This document shows positions 8,116 through 43,002 of a stretch of DNA of 43,002 nt, in pieces. The position numbers and the translations under genes are program-made. Each line of letters opens with the position of its first letter. Position 1 is the first letter of the stretch. The stretch covers positions 1-43,002 of the forward strand of contig JAFXZJ010000042.1 in NCBI GenBank assembly GCA_017541305.1, read 5' to 3'. This DNA is from Clostridia bacterium. GTDB lineage: Bacteria; Bacillota; Clostridia; Christensenellales; CAG-138. Under the pieces are notes generated by a model. The model saw only the letters and a list, made by a program, of their open reading frames with translations, did no database searches and was not told the origin of the DNA.

Positions 8116-11100
8116 TCAGACCACCTTGACGCCTATGGTGACGTTTTCGCCGTTGATATCCCATTCCTTGGAGCAGGCGCCCTCGGGAGCGGGACCGAAA
8201 TGCAGCTCGTCGGCAAGCGTATCGCCGGTGATGGAAACGCAGTTCTTGACGGCGATCTCTTCGATATTCGCGTTGCCGCTTATGAATATCGAGATATGGT
8301 CGGTCACGCGGAAATCGGCCTCCTTGCGCATGGTCTGCACCTTGGAGACCAGCTCGCGCACGTAGCCCTCCTCGATCAGCTCGGGGGTGAGGGTGGTTTC
8401 GAGCACCACGGTGAGATCGCGCTCGGAAACGGAGGAGAAGCCCTCGCGCTTGACCGTATCGACGAGCACGTTGTCGGGGCCGAGCGCTATCTTCACGCCC
8501 TCGAGCTCGAACTCAAAGGGCAGGCCCTTGGCGTGCGCGGCGACGCACAGATTGCCCACGCCCTCGGTATTCTGCAGGTAGTTGTTTATCTTGGGAAGCA
8601 GCTTGCCATAGCGCGGCCCGAGCAGCTTGAGCTGGGGCTTTACGCGATAGGCGATGAAGGCGGACGCATCGGAAACGTATTCGACCTTCTTGACGTTTAG
8701 CTCGCCCTCGATTATCTCGTCATACATATCGGGCAGCTTCTCGGCGCCCTGCACGAAGAGCCTGGAAAGGGGCTGACGGTTTTTGATATTGGACTGCGCC
8801 CTTGCCGCGCGGCCGAGCACGACTACGCGGTAAGCCTCGCCCATGTCGGCTTCGAGCTCGGGATCTATGAAGCTTTCGTCGCACACGGGGTAATCGCAAA
8901 GATGCACGCTTTCGGGAGCGTTCTTATCGCAGGTGCGCACTATGTTCTGATACATCTGCTCCGCCATGAAGGGGGTGAAGGGCGCGGTGAGGCGCGTCAT
9001 GGTCTCGAGCACGGTGTAAAGCGTCATATAGGCGGCCTCCTTATCGGCGGTCATCTCGCTGCCCCAGTAGCGCTCACGCCCGCGGCGCACGTACCAGTTG
9101 GAAAGATCGTCGACAAAGGCGTTCAGCTCGCGCCCGGCCTCGGTGATATGCAGGCTTTCGAGCAGCTCGTCCTCCTTTTTGACAAGGGTGTTGAGCTTGG
9201 AGAGTATCCACTTATCCATAACGGAAAGGTTCTCGCGCCTTAGCTCGTGCTTGGTGGGATCGAACCCGTCGATATCGGCATAGAGGATATAGAACGCATA
9301 GGTGTTCCACAGAGTGCCCATGTATTTGCGCTGGGTCTCGGAAACGGCCTCGCCGGAGAAGCGGCTGGGCAGCCAGGGGCTGGAGGCGGTGTAGAAATAC
9401 CACCTTACGGCGTCGGCGCCCTGCTTGGTGAGCACGTCCGCGGGAGCGACGACGTTGCCGATATGCTTTGACATCTTTTTGCCGTCCTTATCGCAGACAA
9501 GGCCGAGCACTATGCAGTTTTTGAACGCGGGCTCGTCGAAGAGGCAGGCCGCGACGGCGTTCAGGGTGTAGAACCAGCCGCGGGTCTGATCGACGGCTTC
9601 GCTGATGTAATCGGCGGGATAGCGGCGCTCGAACTCCTCTTTGTTTTCAAAGGGATAATGCCACTGGGCGAAGGGCATGGAGCCGGAATCGAACCAGCAG
9701 TCGATAACGACGGGCTCGCGCTTCATAACGCCGCCGCAGTGCGGGCATTTCATGGTCAAGGGATCGAGCATGGGCTTGTGCAGCTCGATATCGGGAGCGG
9801 CATCGGGGAAGCATTTCAAAAGCTCCTCGCGGGAACCTATCGTGTGGTGATGGCCGCAGTCCCCGCACACCCACACGGGCAGGGGCGTGCCCCAATAGCG
9901 CTCGCGGGTGACGGCCCAGTCGATCACGTTTTCGAGGAAGTTGCCCATGCGCCCCTCGCCTATGGATTCGGGTATCCAGTTGATGCGCTTGTTGAAATCC
10001 AGCAGCTTATCGCGCAGCTTGGTCATCTCGATGAACCAGCCGCCGCGCGCGAAATAGATGAGCGGAGTGTCGCAGCGCCAGCAGAAGGGATAGCTGTGCT
10101 CATAGGGAAGCTCTTTAAAGAGCCTGCCGCGCTCCTTAAGATCGGCTATTATGAGCTTGTCGGCCTTCTTGACGTTCACGCCGTCCCAGGGGGTGCCGCC
10201 GGCCAGCTCGCCCTTGGCGTTAACGTTCTGCACGAAGGGCAGCTCCCATGTCTTGCCGACCCTGCCGTCGTCAACGCCGAACGCGGGCGCGATATGCACC
10301 ACGCCGGTGCCGTCGGTGAGCGTGACGTAACCGTCGGACACGACGCGCCAGCCCTTCTTGCTGCCGTGATTCACGGGGAAGTCGAACAGGGGCTCGTATT
10401 CGAGGCCCACCAGATCGGCGCCCTTGTATCTTTCGACGACGTTCCAGCCCTCGCCGAGCACGCTTTCAACCAGCGCTTCGGCCATTATATAGCGCTTGCC
10501 GTCCTTTTCGACCTTGACGTAATCCTCGTCGGCGTTGACGCAGAGCGCGACGTTGGAGGGCAGAGTCCAGGGGGTGGTCGTCCAGGCGATGAGCTCCGTG
10601 CCGTCATCCATGCCCTTTACGGGGAAGGTGATGAATATGGAGACCTCCTTGACGTCCTTATAGCCCTGAGCCACCTCGTGAGAGGAGAGAGCGGTGCCGC
10701 AGCGGGGGCAGTAGGGCACTATCTTGTGGCCCTTATAGAGCAGGCCCTTTTCGTCGATGGTCTTTAAGGCCCACCATACGGATTCGATATAGTCGTCCGT
10801 ATAGGTGACGTAGGGGTTTTCCATATCGGCCCAATAGCCGACGGAATCGGACATCTGCTCCCATTCGCCCTTGTACTTCCAGACGGATTCCTTGCACTTT
10901 GCGATAAAGGGCTCGACGCCGTACTGCTCGATCTGCTCCTTGCCGTCAAGGCCCAGGAGCTTTTCGACCTCGAGCTCGACGGGCAGACCGTGGGTATCCC
11001 AGCCGGCCTTTCTGAGCACGTCATAGCCCTTCATGGTGCGGTAGCGGGGTATGATATCCTTCATCGAGCGGGTCAGCACGTGGCCTATGTGGGGCTTGCC

Positions 11101-11253
11101 GTTGGCCGTGGGCGGGCCGTCATAGAAAGTATACGCGGGCGCGCCGCGGCGAAGCTCAACGGATTTTTCGAATATCCGGTTTTCCTTCCAGAATTCCAGC
11201 ACCTCGCGCTCGCGCGGGACGAAATCCATGGAGGCGGAGACTTTCTTGTACAT
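8116..11253 (-). CDS. ileS: Isoleucine--tRNA ligase
   Basis: The 1045-residue class I synthetase charges tRNA-Ile. HIGH is at residues 55-58 in NGKPHIGHVL, and KMSKH is near residue 590. The large CP1 editing domain lies between them, including WTTTPWTLPSN. Cys-rich zinc-knuckle pairs occur at PYCPRCG, VCGDCGHH and KCPHCGG, and the anticodon-binding domain is C-terminal. The length and WND-free, long C-terminal form look like the IleS2 (eukaryote-like) class rather than the about 930-residue IleS1 class; this is inference. ATG at 11253 has AAAGGA 8 bases upstream; the open frame continues through the leader but that part is the T-box region. Expression is controlled by the T-box leader at 11429-11675. 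Confidence 0.97.
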   Translation of the reverse strand: MYKKVSASMDFVPREREVLEFWKENRIFEKSVELRRGAPAYTFYDGPPTANGKPHIGHVLTRSMKDIIPRYRTMKGYDVLRKAGWDTHGLPVELEVEKLLGLDGKEQIEQYGVEPFIAKCKESVWKYKGEWEQMSDSVGYWADMENPYVTYTDDYIESVWWALKTIDEKGLLYKGHKIVPYCPRCGTALSSHEVAQGYKDVKEVSIFITFPVKGMDDGTELIAWTTTPWTLPSNVALCVNADEDYVKVEKDGKRYIMAEALVESVLGEGWNVVERYKGADLVGLEYEPLFDFPVNHGSKKGWRVVSDGYVTLTDGTGVVHIAPAFGVDDGRVGKTWELPFVQNVNAKGELAGGTPWDGVNVKKADKLIIADLKERGRLFKELPYEHSYPFCWRCDTPLIYFARGGWFIEMTKLRDKLLDFNKRINWIPESIGEGRMGNFLENVIDWAVTRERYWGTPLPVWVCGDCGHHHTIGSREELLKCFPDAAPDIELHKPMLDPLTMKCPHCGGVMKREPVVIDCWFDSGSMPFAQWHYPFENKEEFERRYPADYISEAVDQTRGWFYTLNAVAACLFDEPAFKNCIVLGLVCDKDGKKMSKHIGNVVAPADVLTKQGADAVRWYFYTASSPWLPSRFSGEAVSETQRKYMGTLWNTYAFYILYADIDGFDPTKHELRRENLSVMDKWILSKLNTLVKKEDELLESLHITEAGRELNAFVDDLSNWYVRRGRERYWGSEMTADKEAAYMTLYTVLETMTRLTAPFTPFMAEQMYQNIVRTCDKNAPESVHLCDYPVCDESFIDPELEADMGEAYRVVVLGRAARAQSNIKNRQPLSRLFVQGAEKLPDMYDEIIEGELNVKKVEYVSDASAFIAYRVKPQLKLLGPRYGKLLPKINNYLQNTEGVGNLCVAAHAKGLPFEFELEGVKIALGPDNVLVDTVKREGFSSVSERDLTVVLETTLTPELIEEGYVRELVSKVQTMRKEADFRVTDHISIFISGNANIEEIAVKNCVSITGDTLADELHFGPAPEGACSKEWDINGENVTIGVKVV

Positions 11254-11345
11254 ATGATTATTCCTTTCGGTATAATGATCGTTTAATATTGCGCCGCGAT
11301 CGCGCATATCGACCGAGCTTTGGCAGATGCGCCCCCTCGTCATCC

Positions 11346-11418
11346 ATGCGCCGCAAGGCGCATATCGGATCGGCGCAAGCCGATATATCGAGCCGCAGGC
11401 ATATCGAATGCGAAGCAT
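11346..11418. repeat. Array of four short hairpins in the ileS leader
   Basis: Four small hairpins follow each other. ATGCGCC/GGCGCAT with a GCAA loop is at 11346-11363, ATCGGC/GCCGAT with a GCAA loop at 11369-11384, GCC/GGC with a GCA loop at 11392-11400, and ATGC/GCAT with a GAA loop at 11408-11418. They are joined by ATATCG spacers. The array lies between the T-box terminator and the ileS start codon, so it is transcribed only on read-through. It is distinct from the T-box fold. Confidence 0.6.
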
Positions 11419-11428
11419 ATCTCGACCT

Positions 11429-11675
11429 AAAAAGCGCCCGCGGGGAAATTCCCGGGACGCCTTATAAACGCGGTACCACCCGAGTTCGCAGGAGAAAAGC
11501 CCCTGCGCGCTCACGAGCCCTTTAACGGAGGCCGGCCGCGGAAGGGTACCTGAAGCTTTCTCCCCATCCGTGCTCGCAGGCGATATGCCGCGCCGCCGTG
11601 CCGCCGCGCTTCCACCATCCGCAGCTCGCTTTACGCCGTGCCAACGCTCACCTGTCCTGTTCAAAGCATTTACGA
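11429..11675 (-). promoter_or_regulatory. T-box riboswitch leader of ileS
   Basis: On the minus strand the T-box core GGGTGGTACCGCG is present at 11469-11481, the sequence that pairs with the free CCA end of uncharged tRNA. Upstream are a stem I-like region with GGATGGTGGAAG and a candidate isoleucine specifier codon ATC at 11582-11584 (in CATATCG). Downstream a GC-rich terminator stem (about 11433-11462) is followed by TTTTT. Known mechanism: uncharged tRNA-Ile stabilises the antiterminator and lets RNA polymerase continue into ileS. The specifier assignment is inference from position and needs a covariance fold. Confidence 0.92.
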
Positions 11676-34175: not shown

Positions 34176-35297
34176 TCAGATGAGGTTGTTTTCGGTTTCG
34201 GAGGAGAACAGGTGCGCAAGCTCGGGATCGAACGTGAAGCTGATCTGCTCGCCGTAATCGAAGCCCGCGCGCTTTTCAACGGGAAGATCGACCGTCTGGA
34301 GCACGAGCACGACGTCCTTATCCCCGGCAGTGACGTGCAGGTGCATGGACGAGCCCATCATCTCGCACACGTCGACCGCGGCGTTGATATGCGGCTCATC
34401 GGAGTCCGCCCGGCAGAGCGAGATATGCTCGGGACGGATGCCCAGGATCATCTTTTGCTCCCCGGCATCAGCCGAGGAGAGCGCATCCTGCTGAGCGGCG
34501 CTGAGCGCAAAATCCGCACCACCTATGCGCGCGGTGTATTTGCCGCCGTTTTTGACAAGCTCGGCGTCGAAGAAGTTCATCTGCGGCGAGCCTATGAAGC
34601 CCGCGACGAAGAGATTGACGGGATGATTGAACACCTCCTGCGGGGTGCCGATCTGCTGAATGAAGCCGTCCTTCATTATCACTATCCTGTCGCCCAGGGT
34701 CATGGCCTCGGTCTGGTCATGCGTGACGTAGATGAAGGTGGTGTCGATGCGGTGACGGAGCTTGATTATCTCGGCGCGCATCTGATTGCGCAGCTTGGCG
34801 TCGAGGTTTGACAGCGGCTCGTCCATGAGGAACACCTTGGGCTCGCGCACGATCGCGCGGCCTATCGCCACGCGCTGACGCTGACCGCCGGAGAGCGCCT
34901 TGGGCTTTCTTTGCAGATACTCGGTGATGCCGAGTATTTCCGCCGCCTCGAGCACGCGCCTTTCGATCTCCGCCTTGGGAAGCTTCCTGAGCTTCAGCGC
35001 GAACGCCATGTTCTCATACACGGTCATGTGCGGATAGAGCGCGTAATTCTGGAATACCATCGCGATATCGCGGTCCTTGGGCGCGATGCTGTTGACCAGC
35101 CTGCCGCCGATATAGAGCTCGCCCGAGGAGATCTCCTCGAGGCCCGCGATCATTCGCAGCGTGGTCGATTTGCCGCAGCCGGAGGGGCCGACGAACACGA
35201 TGAATTCCTTGTCGTTGACGACGAGATTGAAATCGTCAACGGCGGTGAACTTGTTGTCGTAGACCTTCCTGATGTTCTTGAGTTCAAGACTTGCCAT
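34176..35297 (-). CDS. ugpC: Sugar ABC transporter ATPase (UgpC/MsmX type)
   Basis: The 373-residue ATPase has Walker A GPSGCGKST (37-45), Q-loop VFQNYALYPHMTVYENMAF, signature LSGGQ (135-139), Walker B VFLMDEPLSNLD, and the C-terminal OB/TOBE region with GIRPEH. This form energises CUT1 sugar importers and is often shared between several of them (MsmX in Bacillus). It probably serves the permeases at 27113-28956. ATG at 35297 is set by the conserved MASLELKNI start; upstream frame is leader. It has its own promoter with a long hairpin-rich leader, and operator 3 lies upstream of its -35 element. Confidence 0.93.
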   Translation of the reverse strand: MASLELKNIRKVYDNKFTAVDDFNLVVNDKEFIVFVGPSGCGKSTTLRMIAGLEEISSGELYIGGRLVNSIAPKDRDIAMVFQNYALYPHMTVYENMAFALKLRKLPKAEIERRVLEAAEILGITEYLQRKPKALSGGQRQRVAIGRAIVREPKVFLMDEPLSNLDAKLRNQMRAEIIKLRHRIDTTFIYVTHDQTEAMTLGDRIVIMKDGFIQQIGTPQEVFNHPVNLFVAGFIGSPQMNFFDAELVKNGGKYTARIGGADFALSAAQQDALSSADAGEQKMILGIRPEHISLCRADSDEPHINAAVDVCEMMGSSMHLHVTAGDKDVVLVLQTVDLPVEKRAGFDYGEQISFTFDPELAHLFSSETENNLI

Positions 35298-35340
35298 AGA
35301 TTTGACCTTGACCGCCCCGAAATCCTTCAACGAGCGGCCT

Positions 35341-35411
35341 CGCAAGGGAGCGCTTGCGTCTCCTTCGCATTGCGGCAGGTCTCCACACTGCCGCACCCCA
35401 AGCCGGGGGTG
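35341..35411 (-). repeat. Three consecutive hairpins in the ugpC leader
   Basis: CGCAAG/CTTGCG (35341-35358), GCGGCAG/CTGCCGC (35371-35393) and CACCCC/GGGGTG (35394-35411) follow each other in the roughly 205-base leader. An AAGGAGG is present upstream of them on the minus strand (about 35422-35428) but no start codon is suitably placed. Function is unknown; the style resembles the ileS leader array. Confidence 0.5.
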
Positions 35412-35508
35412 AAAATTTCCTCCTTATATTCAGCCCTCGCCCGCCCAATGAGTGGAGTGGCCGGGTGCGGAGCCGATTGACGAACTGACGCCCTCAGGGC
35501 TCTTTTAT

Positions 35509-41987: not shown

Positions 41988-42383
41988 TCACTTCCTCACG
42001 CATGCCTCATACCTTTTCTTCAAAAGCAGATAGCGCGAATACTTATCCTCGTTTGCAAAGTGCTCCCCGCGCATCTGCGGGACGGCGGTCGAATAATCGA
42101 GTTTTTCATCGCCGAACTGCTCGCTCGTCAGATCGAACTCATATCCGTCGATCCTGTTGAAGCAGTGATACGCGCCGTCGGGCAGGAGTATCCCCCAAAC
42201 CTCGCCGCCTAAAAGATCCTGCACGAGGAACGAAGTTATCGAGCATTGCCCCAGCGTGGGATTGGCTTTTGACCAGTGCGGCCTCATGCGCGGCGCGCAG
42301 GTCTCGGCGCACCAGACGGAAAGGAAAGTGTCGTACAGCTCACGAATGTGATCGGGAACGGCGTCGTGTCCGTAAAAGCTCAT
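41988..42383 (-). CDS. YunG-like family protein
   Basis: The 131-residue protein contains GQCSITSFLVQDLLGGEVWGI, then YHCFNRIDGYEFDLTSEQF, the pattern of Bacillus YunG-type proteins. The invariant Cys in GQCS, His in YHCFN and Asp in FDLT could form a papain/transglutaminase-like Cys-His-Asp triad; that is inference, and no activity is established. AGGAG lies 6 bases before the ATG. It is first in the cluster with the GNAT and AAA ATPase genes. Confidence 0.78.
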   Translation of the reverse strand: MSFYGHDAVPDHIRELYDTFLSVWCAETCAPRMRPHWSKANPTLGQCSITSFLVQDLLGGEVWGILLPDGAYHCFNRIDGYEFDLTSEQFGDEKLDYSTAVPQMRGEHFANEDKYSRYLLLKKRYEACVRK

Positions 42384-42409
42384 ATTTGTCTCCTGTGATG
42401 TTTTTTTGT

Positions 42410-42439
42410 ATTATAGCATATACTCCCGCGGGCTGACAA
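42410..42439 (-). promoter_or_regulatory. Promoter of the YunG-GNAT-ATPase cluster
   Basis: On the minus strand TTGTCA (42434-42439), 18 bases, TATAAT (42410-42415). Confidence 0.65.
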
Positions 42440-42482
42440 CAAAAACATTGAAGGCGCTGAGGGCGGATCAATAAGGGGATCC

Positions 42483-42631
42483 GGCAGCTGCCTGTCCTCT
42501 CCATGCGTCGCAAACCTTTGGTTTGCTCATTGAGAATATCCTCACGGTGTTCGGATATTCTCACGTCGCCGCCGCAAAAAGGCTTCACCTTTTTGCTTAT
42601 CAAGAAAAAAGCGATGGTGGCGTGAGGCAAG
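42483..42631. repeat. Structured intergenic module B downstream of the 5S rRNA gene
   Basis: It begins with a copy of the 5S 3' end (42483-42511, starting GGCAGCTGCCTGTCC; 18 flanking bases GGGATCCGGCAGCTGCCT also match the true gene). Three hairpins follow: GCAAACC/GGTTTGC (42510-42526), GAGAATATCC/GGATATTCTC (42532-42562) and GCAAAAAGG/CCTTTTTGC (42574-42596). It ends in a degenerate inverted copy (42611-42631). Confidence 0.7.
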
Positions 42632-42674
42632 TTGCTTTTGATAATAAGGATGTTTTTGGAGTTCTTTTAGACAG

Positions 42675-42835
42675 GGCAGCTGCCTATCCTCTCCATGCGT
42701 CGCAAACCTCGGTATGTTGAGCATACCGAGGTTTGTTCACCGAGAAAAGCTCTGCGGACGGGGCCTTGAGCTTTTCTCGCGTCGCAGGTAAAAAGCTTCG
42801 CTTTTTACGCGACGGCTAATGGCGAGGGTAGGCAG
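42675..42835. repeat. Structured intergenic module A downstream of the 5S rRNA gene
   Basis: It begins with a 29-base copy of the 5S 3' end (42675-42703, two indels from 42899-42927). Three hairpins follow: AAACCTCGGTATG/CATACCGAGGTTT (about 42704-42734), CGAGAAAAGCTC/GAGCTTTTCTCG (42741-42779) and GTAAAAAGC/GCTTTTTAC (42788-42808). It ends with GCGACGGCTAATGGCGAGGG... (42809-42835), the inverted copy of the same 5S segment. Hairpin order and pairing match module B although sequences differ. Confidence 0.75.
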
Positions 42836-42850
42836 ATGGCGGGACCAAAG

Positions 42851-42886
42851 GAAAGAAAAAGCAGAGACGCTTGCGTCTCTGCTTTT
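42851..42886 (-). terminator. rRNA operon terminator
   Basis: AAAAGCAGAGACGC (42857-42870) pairs with GCGTCTCTGCTTTT (42873-42886). On the minus strand the stem is followed by TTTTTCTTTCC. It lies 13 bases downstream of the 5S 3' end. Confidence 0.88.
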
Positions 42887-42898
42887 CCTTTGGGATCC

Positions 42899-43002
<104 letters not shown>

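Follow-up and report, generated by a model that had tools for sequence, protein, structure and literature searches.

Palindromic modules behind an rRNA operon of a rumen Clostridia genus, probably a branch of an interspersed hairpin mosaic

At the end of an rRNA operon in an uncultured rumen Clostridia genus, two tandem modules lie beside the 5S gene, and the arms of their hairpins differ between modules while remaining paired. A first-pass annotation of this DNA took such paired changes to indicate selection on, or generation of, the fold. Which of the two applies is the question that the locus raises. We consider it probable that the modules form a fast-changing palindromic repeat array behind the rRNA operon terminator, the operon-linked branch of a genus-specific interspersed hairpin mosaic, shaped by template switching, unit swapping and recombination.

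The window, meaning the whole stretch of 43,002 nucleotides that was analysed, is contig C7 of a draft genome of 2.42 Mb (G000, hereafter the window's own genome). The contig ends within the 5S gene, as is likewise the case for locus L031. Read from the 5S on the minus strand, the order is terminator-like hairpin, module M1, module M2, promoter-like site and YunG-family gene:

42895..43002, minus strand: 5S rRNA gene, truncated by the contig end (Rfam RF00001, 67 bits, E 4.2e-12)
~42852..42891, minus strand: intrinsic-terminator-like hairpin after the 5S, with a GC stem and a T-rich tail in both directions (arms 95% complementary; found by our own terminator scan, not called by a consensus terminator scanner)
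42675..42840, minus strand: module M1, type I, comprising an inverted 5S-end strand, three hairpins and a 5S-like 3' end (model R1, 146.5 bits, a score that is not independent since M1 is a member of R1's own alignment)
42819..42840, minus strand: inverted copy of the 5S 3' end, the closing strand of M1 (17 Watson-Crick pairs, 1 A.C, 2 other; score 27 against a shuffle maximum of 25)
42788..42808, minus strand: M1 hairpin H1, 9 bp, perfect
42741..42779, minus strand: M1 hairpin H2, 12 bp, perfect (matched together with H3 by model R3 at 42697-42787, E 8.1e-9)
42703..42735, minus strand: M1 hairpin H3, 14 bp, perfect
42675..42709, minus strand: 5S-like 3' end of M1, a direct copy of the 5S 3' end
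42483..42635, minus strand: module M2, a mosaic, in part type II and for the remainder type I (R1 71.3 bits, E 1.1e-16, M2 being outside R1's alignment)
42565..42616, minus strand: type II-derived piece of M2, holding its third hairpin at 42574-42596 (9 bp, perfect); 92% identity to the L031 type II module, E 3.2e-15
42531..42563, minus strand: M2 hairpin H2, 11 bp, perfect (R3 match at 42505-42571, E 1.3e-7)
42510..42526, minus strand: M2 hairpin H3, 7 bp, perfect
42483..42517, minus strand: 5S-like 3' end of M2, a direct copy of the 5S 3' end
42410..42439, minus strand: promoter-like site TTGTCA-18-TATAAT with TG ahead of the second hexamer, for the next gene past the array (11 of 12 matches)
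41988..42383, minus strand: gene for a YunG-family protein, next downstream (Pfam PF24585, E 4.1e-34)

A similar promoter-like site, again with 11 of 12 matches, lies past the L031 array. Elsewhere in the window, Rfam searches placed a malK-I RNA motif at 35292-35475 (minus strand, RF03069, 119.7 bits) and a T-box leader at 11450-11673 (minus strand, 98.1 bits), the latter with a long same-strand ORF at 8116-11664.

The modules reported by the first-pass annotation are present, but the 5S gene is on the minus strand, so that they lie downstream of it and in an order opposite to that first described; the array also starts further out, at the terminator hairpin. Both modules do carry a copy of the 5S 3' end, and the two copies share 97% identity (69% with the true 5S end, 42899-42933, in ungapped comparison). 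The hairpin arms are indeed perfectly paired, over 14, 12 and 9 bp in M1 and 7, 11 and 9 bp in M2. The shared order of three hairpins holds up less completely: the hairpins are real, but the third ones, of the AAAAAG type, are not homologous, that of M2 deriving from type II. An inverted 5S copy, said to close both modules, closes M1, and none was found in M2. The 426-nt stretch 42470-42895, terminator hairpin included, folds better than all 100 dinucleotide shuffles on either strand (z of -11.3 on the minus, or 5S, strand and -10.1 on the plus strand).

Comparison with other loci separates two main module types. Type I carries the AAACC/GGTTT-, GAGAA/TTCTC- and AAAAAG/CTTTTT-type hairpins first noticed in the window. 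Type II has an outer CCATGCC/GGCATGG stem and two small hairpins, one on either side of a long CAAGAAAAAAGC/GCTTTTTTCTTG hairpin whose loop is large in most copies. By eye, a third unit type occurs in L064 and L069 and is dispersed elsewhere too. Type II modules are located at rRNA operons, and elsewhere yielded only short matches (E 0.015-0.1). M2 is a chimera of the type II piece 42565-42616 and a type I piece. In four loci (L031, L061, L066 and L067) the loop of the long type II hairpin is nearly constant in length (66, 65, 68 and 64 nt, respectively) and very variable in sequence. Within positions 1-140 of L059, an inverted type II piece adjoins a type I module, and a 43-bp near-perfect palindrome (41 Watson-Crick pairs, 1 G.T, 1 A.C) surrounds the terminator between the two. 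We do not claim an inversion of the L058 module, for which R1 scored 49 bits antisense against 31 sense and R3 31.7 bits sense against 19.4 antisense. Small ORFs across type II modules were likewise set aside, the frames being open in several modules but out of step with the conserved letters (by eye, unscored).

A DNA search of 61 genomes, the window's own and 60 relatives, gave matches in 11, ten belonging to the genus and one to a different genus, where the 5S end alone matched. Fifteen loci of the genus were read; in 13 the contig includes the 5S 3' end, while L059 and L064 start within an array or at its margin. Behind the 5S, modules or parts of them stand in 11 of these 13 (the window, L031, L057, L058, L060, L061, L062, L063, L066, L067 and, partially, L069); L065 and L068 are 5S ends without modules. 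Counted by genome, a module is present in nine of the ten genus genomes showing a 5S end or array, the remaining three of the 13 having given no such locus. Because contigs break in the gene, only three of the 13 pass the Rfam 5S cut-off, and since all genomes are drafts, and genus contigs with a 5S break in or near it, copy numbers are minimum estimates. A further 13 loci, from outside the genus set (three from one genus of the same family and ten contigs matching none of the 13 genus genomes), have the same 5S end and, by eye, no module. Model R1, built from seven type I sequences, gave 22 matches in six of the 13 genus genomes at E <=1, a figure that includes its seven training rows and both-strand doubles; across the family, with stricter filters, it matched four of 103 genomes at E <=0.1, in one of 26 genera. 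A scan of viral contigs for the 5S-end pattern returned no exact match. Within the window's own genome the two rRNA operons bear different arrays: the counterpart of M1, a 95% identical stretch, lies at the end of the second operon in the second, not the first, position.

Relatives of the modules also occur away from rRNA operons. R1 gave weak matches (E 0.04-0.05) at three intergenic places without a 5S, where the hairpin pair stands in the same order. Exact hairpin patterns were found at nine places in four of the 13 genus genomes, three of the nine being rRNA-operon modules (controls, 0), and at ten places in four of the 103 family genomes, again in one of 26 genera (reversed-pattern control, 0). 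A 271-bp dispersed query had 60 matches in six of the 13 genus genomes (25 in G000, 14 in G009, nine in G007, six in G010, five in G008 and one in G003) and none in the other seven; several dispersed matches are at contig ends, and these repeat counts are thus lower bounds. By eye, 20 stretches of the window's own genome share one scaffold and carry differing hairpins in the same slot, for example of the CGAGAAAAGCAT, CCGAAAAATTTGC and CTCGAAAAATG types. Alignments A3 and A4 were mis-registered by two columns in H2, and four of their 11 rows were dropped from A5, the basis of model R2; as A5 includes one rRNA-operon module, R2 matches on modules are not independent. Model R3 was trained on seven dispersed copies only, and it finds M1 (8.1e-9), M2 (1.3e-7), L057 (8.5e-11), L031 (1.2e-9) and L062 (1e-6), at E-values that are rough owing to a shortened calibration. 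Since a model of dispersed copies alone recovers both window modules, the relation between modules and dispersed copies does not rest on circular training. By sequence likeness, then, the modules appear to be that part of a genus-specific, interspersed palindrome mosaic which sits at rRNA operons. Other dispersed repeats, of CCCTCATCC...GGGGAAGGC types, are joined to hairpin mosaics in L230-L249, notably L235. On the 13 loci outside the genus set R3 gave two matches, one in L085 (898-964, 21.3 bits, E 0.0013), which could be a distant relative or chance, and one in L091 (12.2 bits, E 0.27).

These searches dispose of the simplest alternative, that the hairpins are chance structures or unrelated simple repeats. 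Beyond the A/T-rich arms nothing speaks for it, and it is ruled out by the folding z of -11, the R1 matches in six of 13 genomes (training rows and both-strand doubles counted) and the zero control matches. Further copies with compensatory pairing, which the first-pass annotation had proposed seeking with a covariance model, were found in genomes of the genus and exclude a source in unrelated simple repeats.

The proposed covariation test was likewise positive: two-sided changes that keep the pairing exceed most shuffles and slid controls in both module types. Alignments A1 and A2, of type I and type II respectively, hold only seven and six sequences, picked as complete modules with mosaic modules omitted. 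In type I, 11 of 47 pairs changed on both sides and still paired, in 26 cells (shuffle means 7.6 pairs and 10.2 cells; slid controls, at most five pairs); in type II, ten of 36 pairs did so, in 16 cells (shuffle means 4.4 and 5.2). The observed number of two-sided pairs was reached by four of 500 shuffles for type I and none of 500 for type II, with the qualification that the shuffles take no account of relatedness and that the structures themselves come from the alignments under test. Further pair types showed no excess in type I (20 against a shuffle mean of 19.4, reached by 256 of 500 shuffles). Adding up the rows for individual pairs gives, for the three inner helices of type I, 26 two-sided, two one-sided and 20 unpaired cells, the last of which we attribute largely to one mis-registered row, A1 having misplaced L057_M1 and so lowered its pairing. 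The closing and junction helices of type I have seven one-sided cells and no two-sided ones, and the three inner helices of type II have 15 two-sided and two one-sided cells.

A structured RNA read from one strand should tolerate G.U on that strand. We counted mismatch classes with one stem finder over 13 arrays, identical arm pairs being counted once. Because the finder prefers perfect stems, absolute wobble rates are underestimated and only comparison between classes is fair; the classes follow rules on arm letters set after a first look, 'inner' being every other short-range stem of at least seven pairs. Terminators have 266 Watson-Crick pairs, 13 G.T and 3 A.C (six of 16 perfect; binomial p 0.02), an excess of G.T over A.C that is a transcript-strand bias. 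Closing or 5S-like stems have 129 Watson-Crick, 1 G.T, 6 A.C and 6 other (five of 13 perfect; binomial p 0.125, not significant alone), and the G.T:A.C ratios of the two classes differ (Fisher p 0.005). Inner stems have 506 Watson-Crick, 3 G.T, 2 A.C and 9 other in 520 positions (41 of 53 perfect), the remaining long-range stems 14 Watson-Crick, 1 A.C and 2 other, and the hairpins of the 20 dispersed stretches 406 Watson-Crick, 5 G.T, 4 A.C and 24 other. The four known RNAs of the window have 16 G.U in 143 pairs, counted on Rfam structures and hence only roughly comparable. Neither the inner stems (3 G.T to 2 A.C) nor the closing stems (1 to 6), in these small numbers, show the strand-specific wobble tolerance expected of a structured non-coding RNA. 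Genuine as the covariation is, whole blocks of an inner stem change at once and hardly any wobble pairs appear. On our reading of these small numbers, the terminators function as RNA, read on the 5S strand, and the inner hairpins and closing stems give no sign of RNA function.

These results bear on the possibility that the modules are a genus-specific structured RNA, transcribed as a trailer of the rRNA operon or as separate small RNAs, with a four-way fold under selection. Strong folding, covariation above controls, conserved linkers and order, and the presence of modules in nine of those ten genomes are all consistent with it, as are promoter-like sites (9 of 12 matches) inside arrays of the window (plus strand, 42530-42559) and L031; a fixed three-hairpin order in two module types together with the conserved linkers could reflect selection on RNA or DNA structure. 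Against it, M1 sits behind a terminator, the inner stems are almost without G.U and the closing stems have A.C rather than G.U. No Rfam family scored above its gathering score (microRNA and other rows below it were taken as chance), R1 matches are confined to one of 26 family genera, two of 13 genus 5S ends lack modules, L059 holds an inverted type II piece, and L062 1-900 is without a promoter-like site. We regard a selected RNA as unlikely. Of the two readings offered at the outset, selection on an RNA is the less favoured, and the evidence leans towards generation or swapping of hairpins, given the excess of two-sided over one-sided changes, the scant inner G.U, the excess of A.C over G.U in closing stems, the differing arrays at one genome's two operons and the dispersed homologous hairpins.

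A reverse-complement copy of the 5S 3' end lies behind the first terminator in ten of 13 genus loci, at an offset of 48-53 nt (p <=0.018; 1000 mononucleotide shuffles per locus). A faint trace is seen at this offset in L065 (p 0.27), but no copy was found in L068 or L069, nor in any of the 13 comparison loci lying outside the genus set (lowest p 0.12). Together, 5S end, terminator and inverted copy make one long quasi-palindrome. Our own terminator scan, whose rules were set after the hairpins had been seen, found 19 terminators on the 5S strand across 15 arrays, against 0.02 in mononucleotide shuffles, and 13 on the opposite strand; five arrays have two, L060 has none on the 5S strand, and none was detected ahead of M2. 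By eye, four terminator stem types recur across species. The consensus scanner called none in window 42300-43002, one in L062 on the wrong strand and two in L031; we think that it misses them because A-T pairs absorb the T tract.

Tandem intrinsic terminators occur behind the 5S of rRNA operons, but here successive terminators are separated by palindromic modules. The closest kinds already known, as far as the sources cited here describe them, are remnants of 5S genes at the ends of rRNA operons (PMC7812874) and the mosaics formed by BIME/REP repeats (PMC2817692, PMC3733652). As outlined in PMC7812874, 5S-like remnants with large insertions lie behind a normal 5S in Peptococcaceae and Pseudoalteromonadaceae, sometimes several, each after a putative terminator, and the authors considered homologous recombination with 5S genes. 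The modules of this rumen genus could accordingly be degenerate 5S genes, tandem duplicates with the core replaced by insertions: they share the location downstream of a normal 5S, the multiple copies and a terminator before most of them (none found before M2), and over 36 nt the end of M2 aligns with the 5S 3' end at 92% (E 5.9e-6). Unlike the remnants outlined in that paper, they keep only about the last 30-40 nt of the 5S, carry this segment inverted on the other flank in place of a 5S 5' half, and hold inserts belonging to a genome-wide hairpin family. A cmscan found 5S only at true genes, and no 5S core in the modules (seven loci, E up to 1; window 42400-42900, E up to 5). We judge this origin to be distinctly improbable.

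As with BIME/REP elements in the accounts of PMC2817692 and PMC3733652, the family to which the modules belong is intergenic and palindromic, with stems variable within it; its interspersion is seen in the dispersed matches, and its mosaic make-up in the slot variants of the 20 stretches (by eye) and in the chimeric M2. It differs in having three hairpin slots and tens of matches rather than hundreds, the 25 in the window's own genome falling short of the more than 100 copies per genome that PMC2817692 gives as usual. CGTC-tagged REPs are outlined as having a CGTC tag (TGTC or CCTC in many), a stem of 8-9 bp and a loop of 4-5 nt; in our copies the H3 loop is mostly 3 nt and the tag varies among dispersed copies (by eye). 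Mobilisation of such REP/BIME elements by the genus's own RAYT-type tyrosine transposase would fit interspersed mosaic hairpins, and RAYT-like genes do occur in four of the 13 genus genomes (PF01797, 49-55 bits); for the two genes tested the best NCBIfam model was REP_Tyr_transpos, with scores of 50.4 and 52.5 bits that fall short of its cut-off of 80. By eye, these genes (L251-L254) are flanked by another, GGGGAC-type hairpin and not by the module repeat, and G007, G009 and G010 hold dispersed copies without a Y1_Tnp match, two of them being 77% and 53% complete. We hold this explanation to be very unlikely. The flanking repeats at L251-L254 (from G002, G011, G008 and G000, in that order) are inverted ACTAACCA...GGGGAC hairpins, with a GCACC...GGGGACGGTTC variant in L251, and are apparently a separate REP system of the genus. 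No transposase or recombinase tied to the module hairpins was found.

For the array that we favour, a history in four steps may be proposed. First, the 5S 3' end would have been copied in inverted orientation past the terminator hairpin, perhaps by fold-back template switching, giving the long quasi-palindrome. Second, hairpin units in fixed slots between inverted and direct 5S-end copies would be replaced or remade whole, by cassette exchange or template-switch repair, and both arms would change together and stay paired. Third, recombination between direct 5S-end copies may duplicate terminator-plus-module units and move them among rRNA operons, as the occurrence of shared modules at different positions suggests. 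Fourth, most units bring a terminator recognised by its sequence, and the arrays may thus serve as fail-safe terminators or insulators. The division of labour that we favour would assign the inverted 5S copy and the perfect arms to fold-back template switching, the mosaic to hairpin exchange and array growth to recombination at 5S ends; the arrays may be retained for their added terminators. Neither an empty-site pair nor a dated event directly showing template switching or recombination was found. According to PMC8794818, template switching both makes hairpin stems and mends them, with compensatory changes of several bases at once; PMC8604942 describes arm homogenisation and spacer inversion. 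Perfect stems, multi-base two-sided changes and arm homogenisation are common to those cases and ours; theirs, in the accounts given there, concern RNA genes and yeast protein genes, and ours entire hairpin arrays. A more specific version is possible but not probable: a hairpin-cassette system with a three-slot scaffold, behind rRNA operons and dispersed, in which whole hairpins would be exchanged by a recombination or template-switch process reading a cruciform or four-way fold, the 5S-end copies being the entry point. Among open-licence PMC articles, judged by title and the start of the abstract, we found no description of such arrays in this group.

When both arms of a stem change together, this is usually read as strong support for an RNA under selection. 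At this locus the signal comes from palindromes that seem to be swapped or regenerated, and covariation by itself could therefore have led to the mistaken call of a novel RNA family. Related arrays, both inside one genome and across genomes, provide a natural test bed for asking whether perfect hairpins in bacteria are written by fold-back template switching, and how terminators accumulate at rRNA operon ends.
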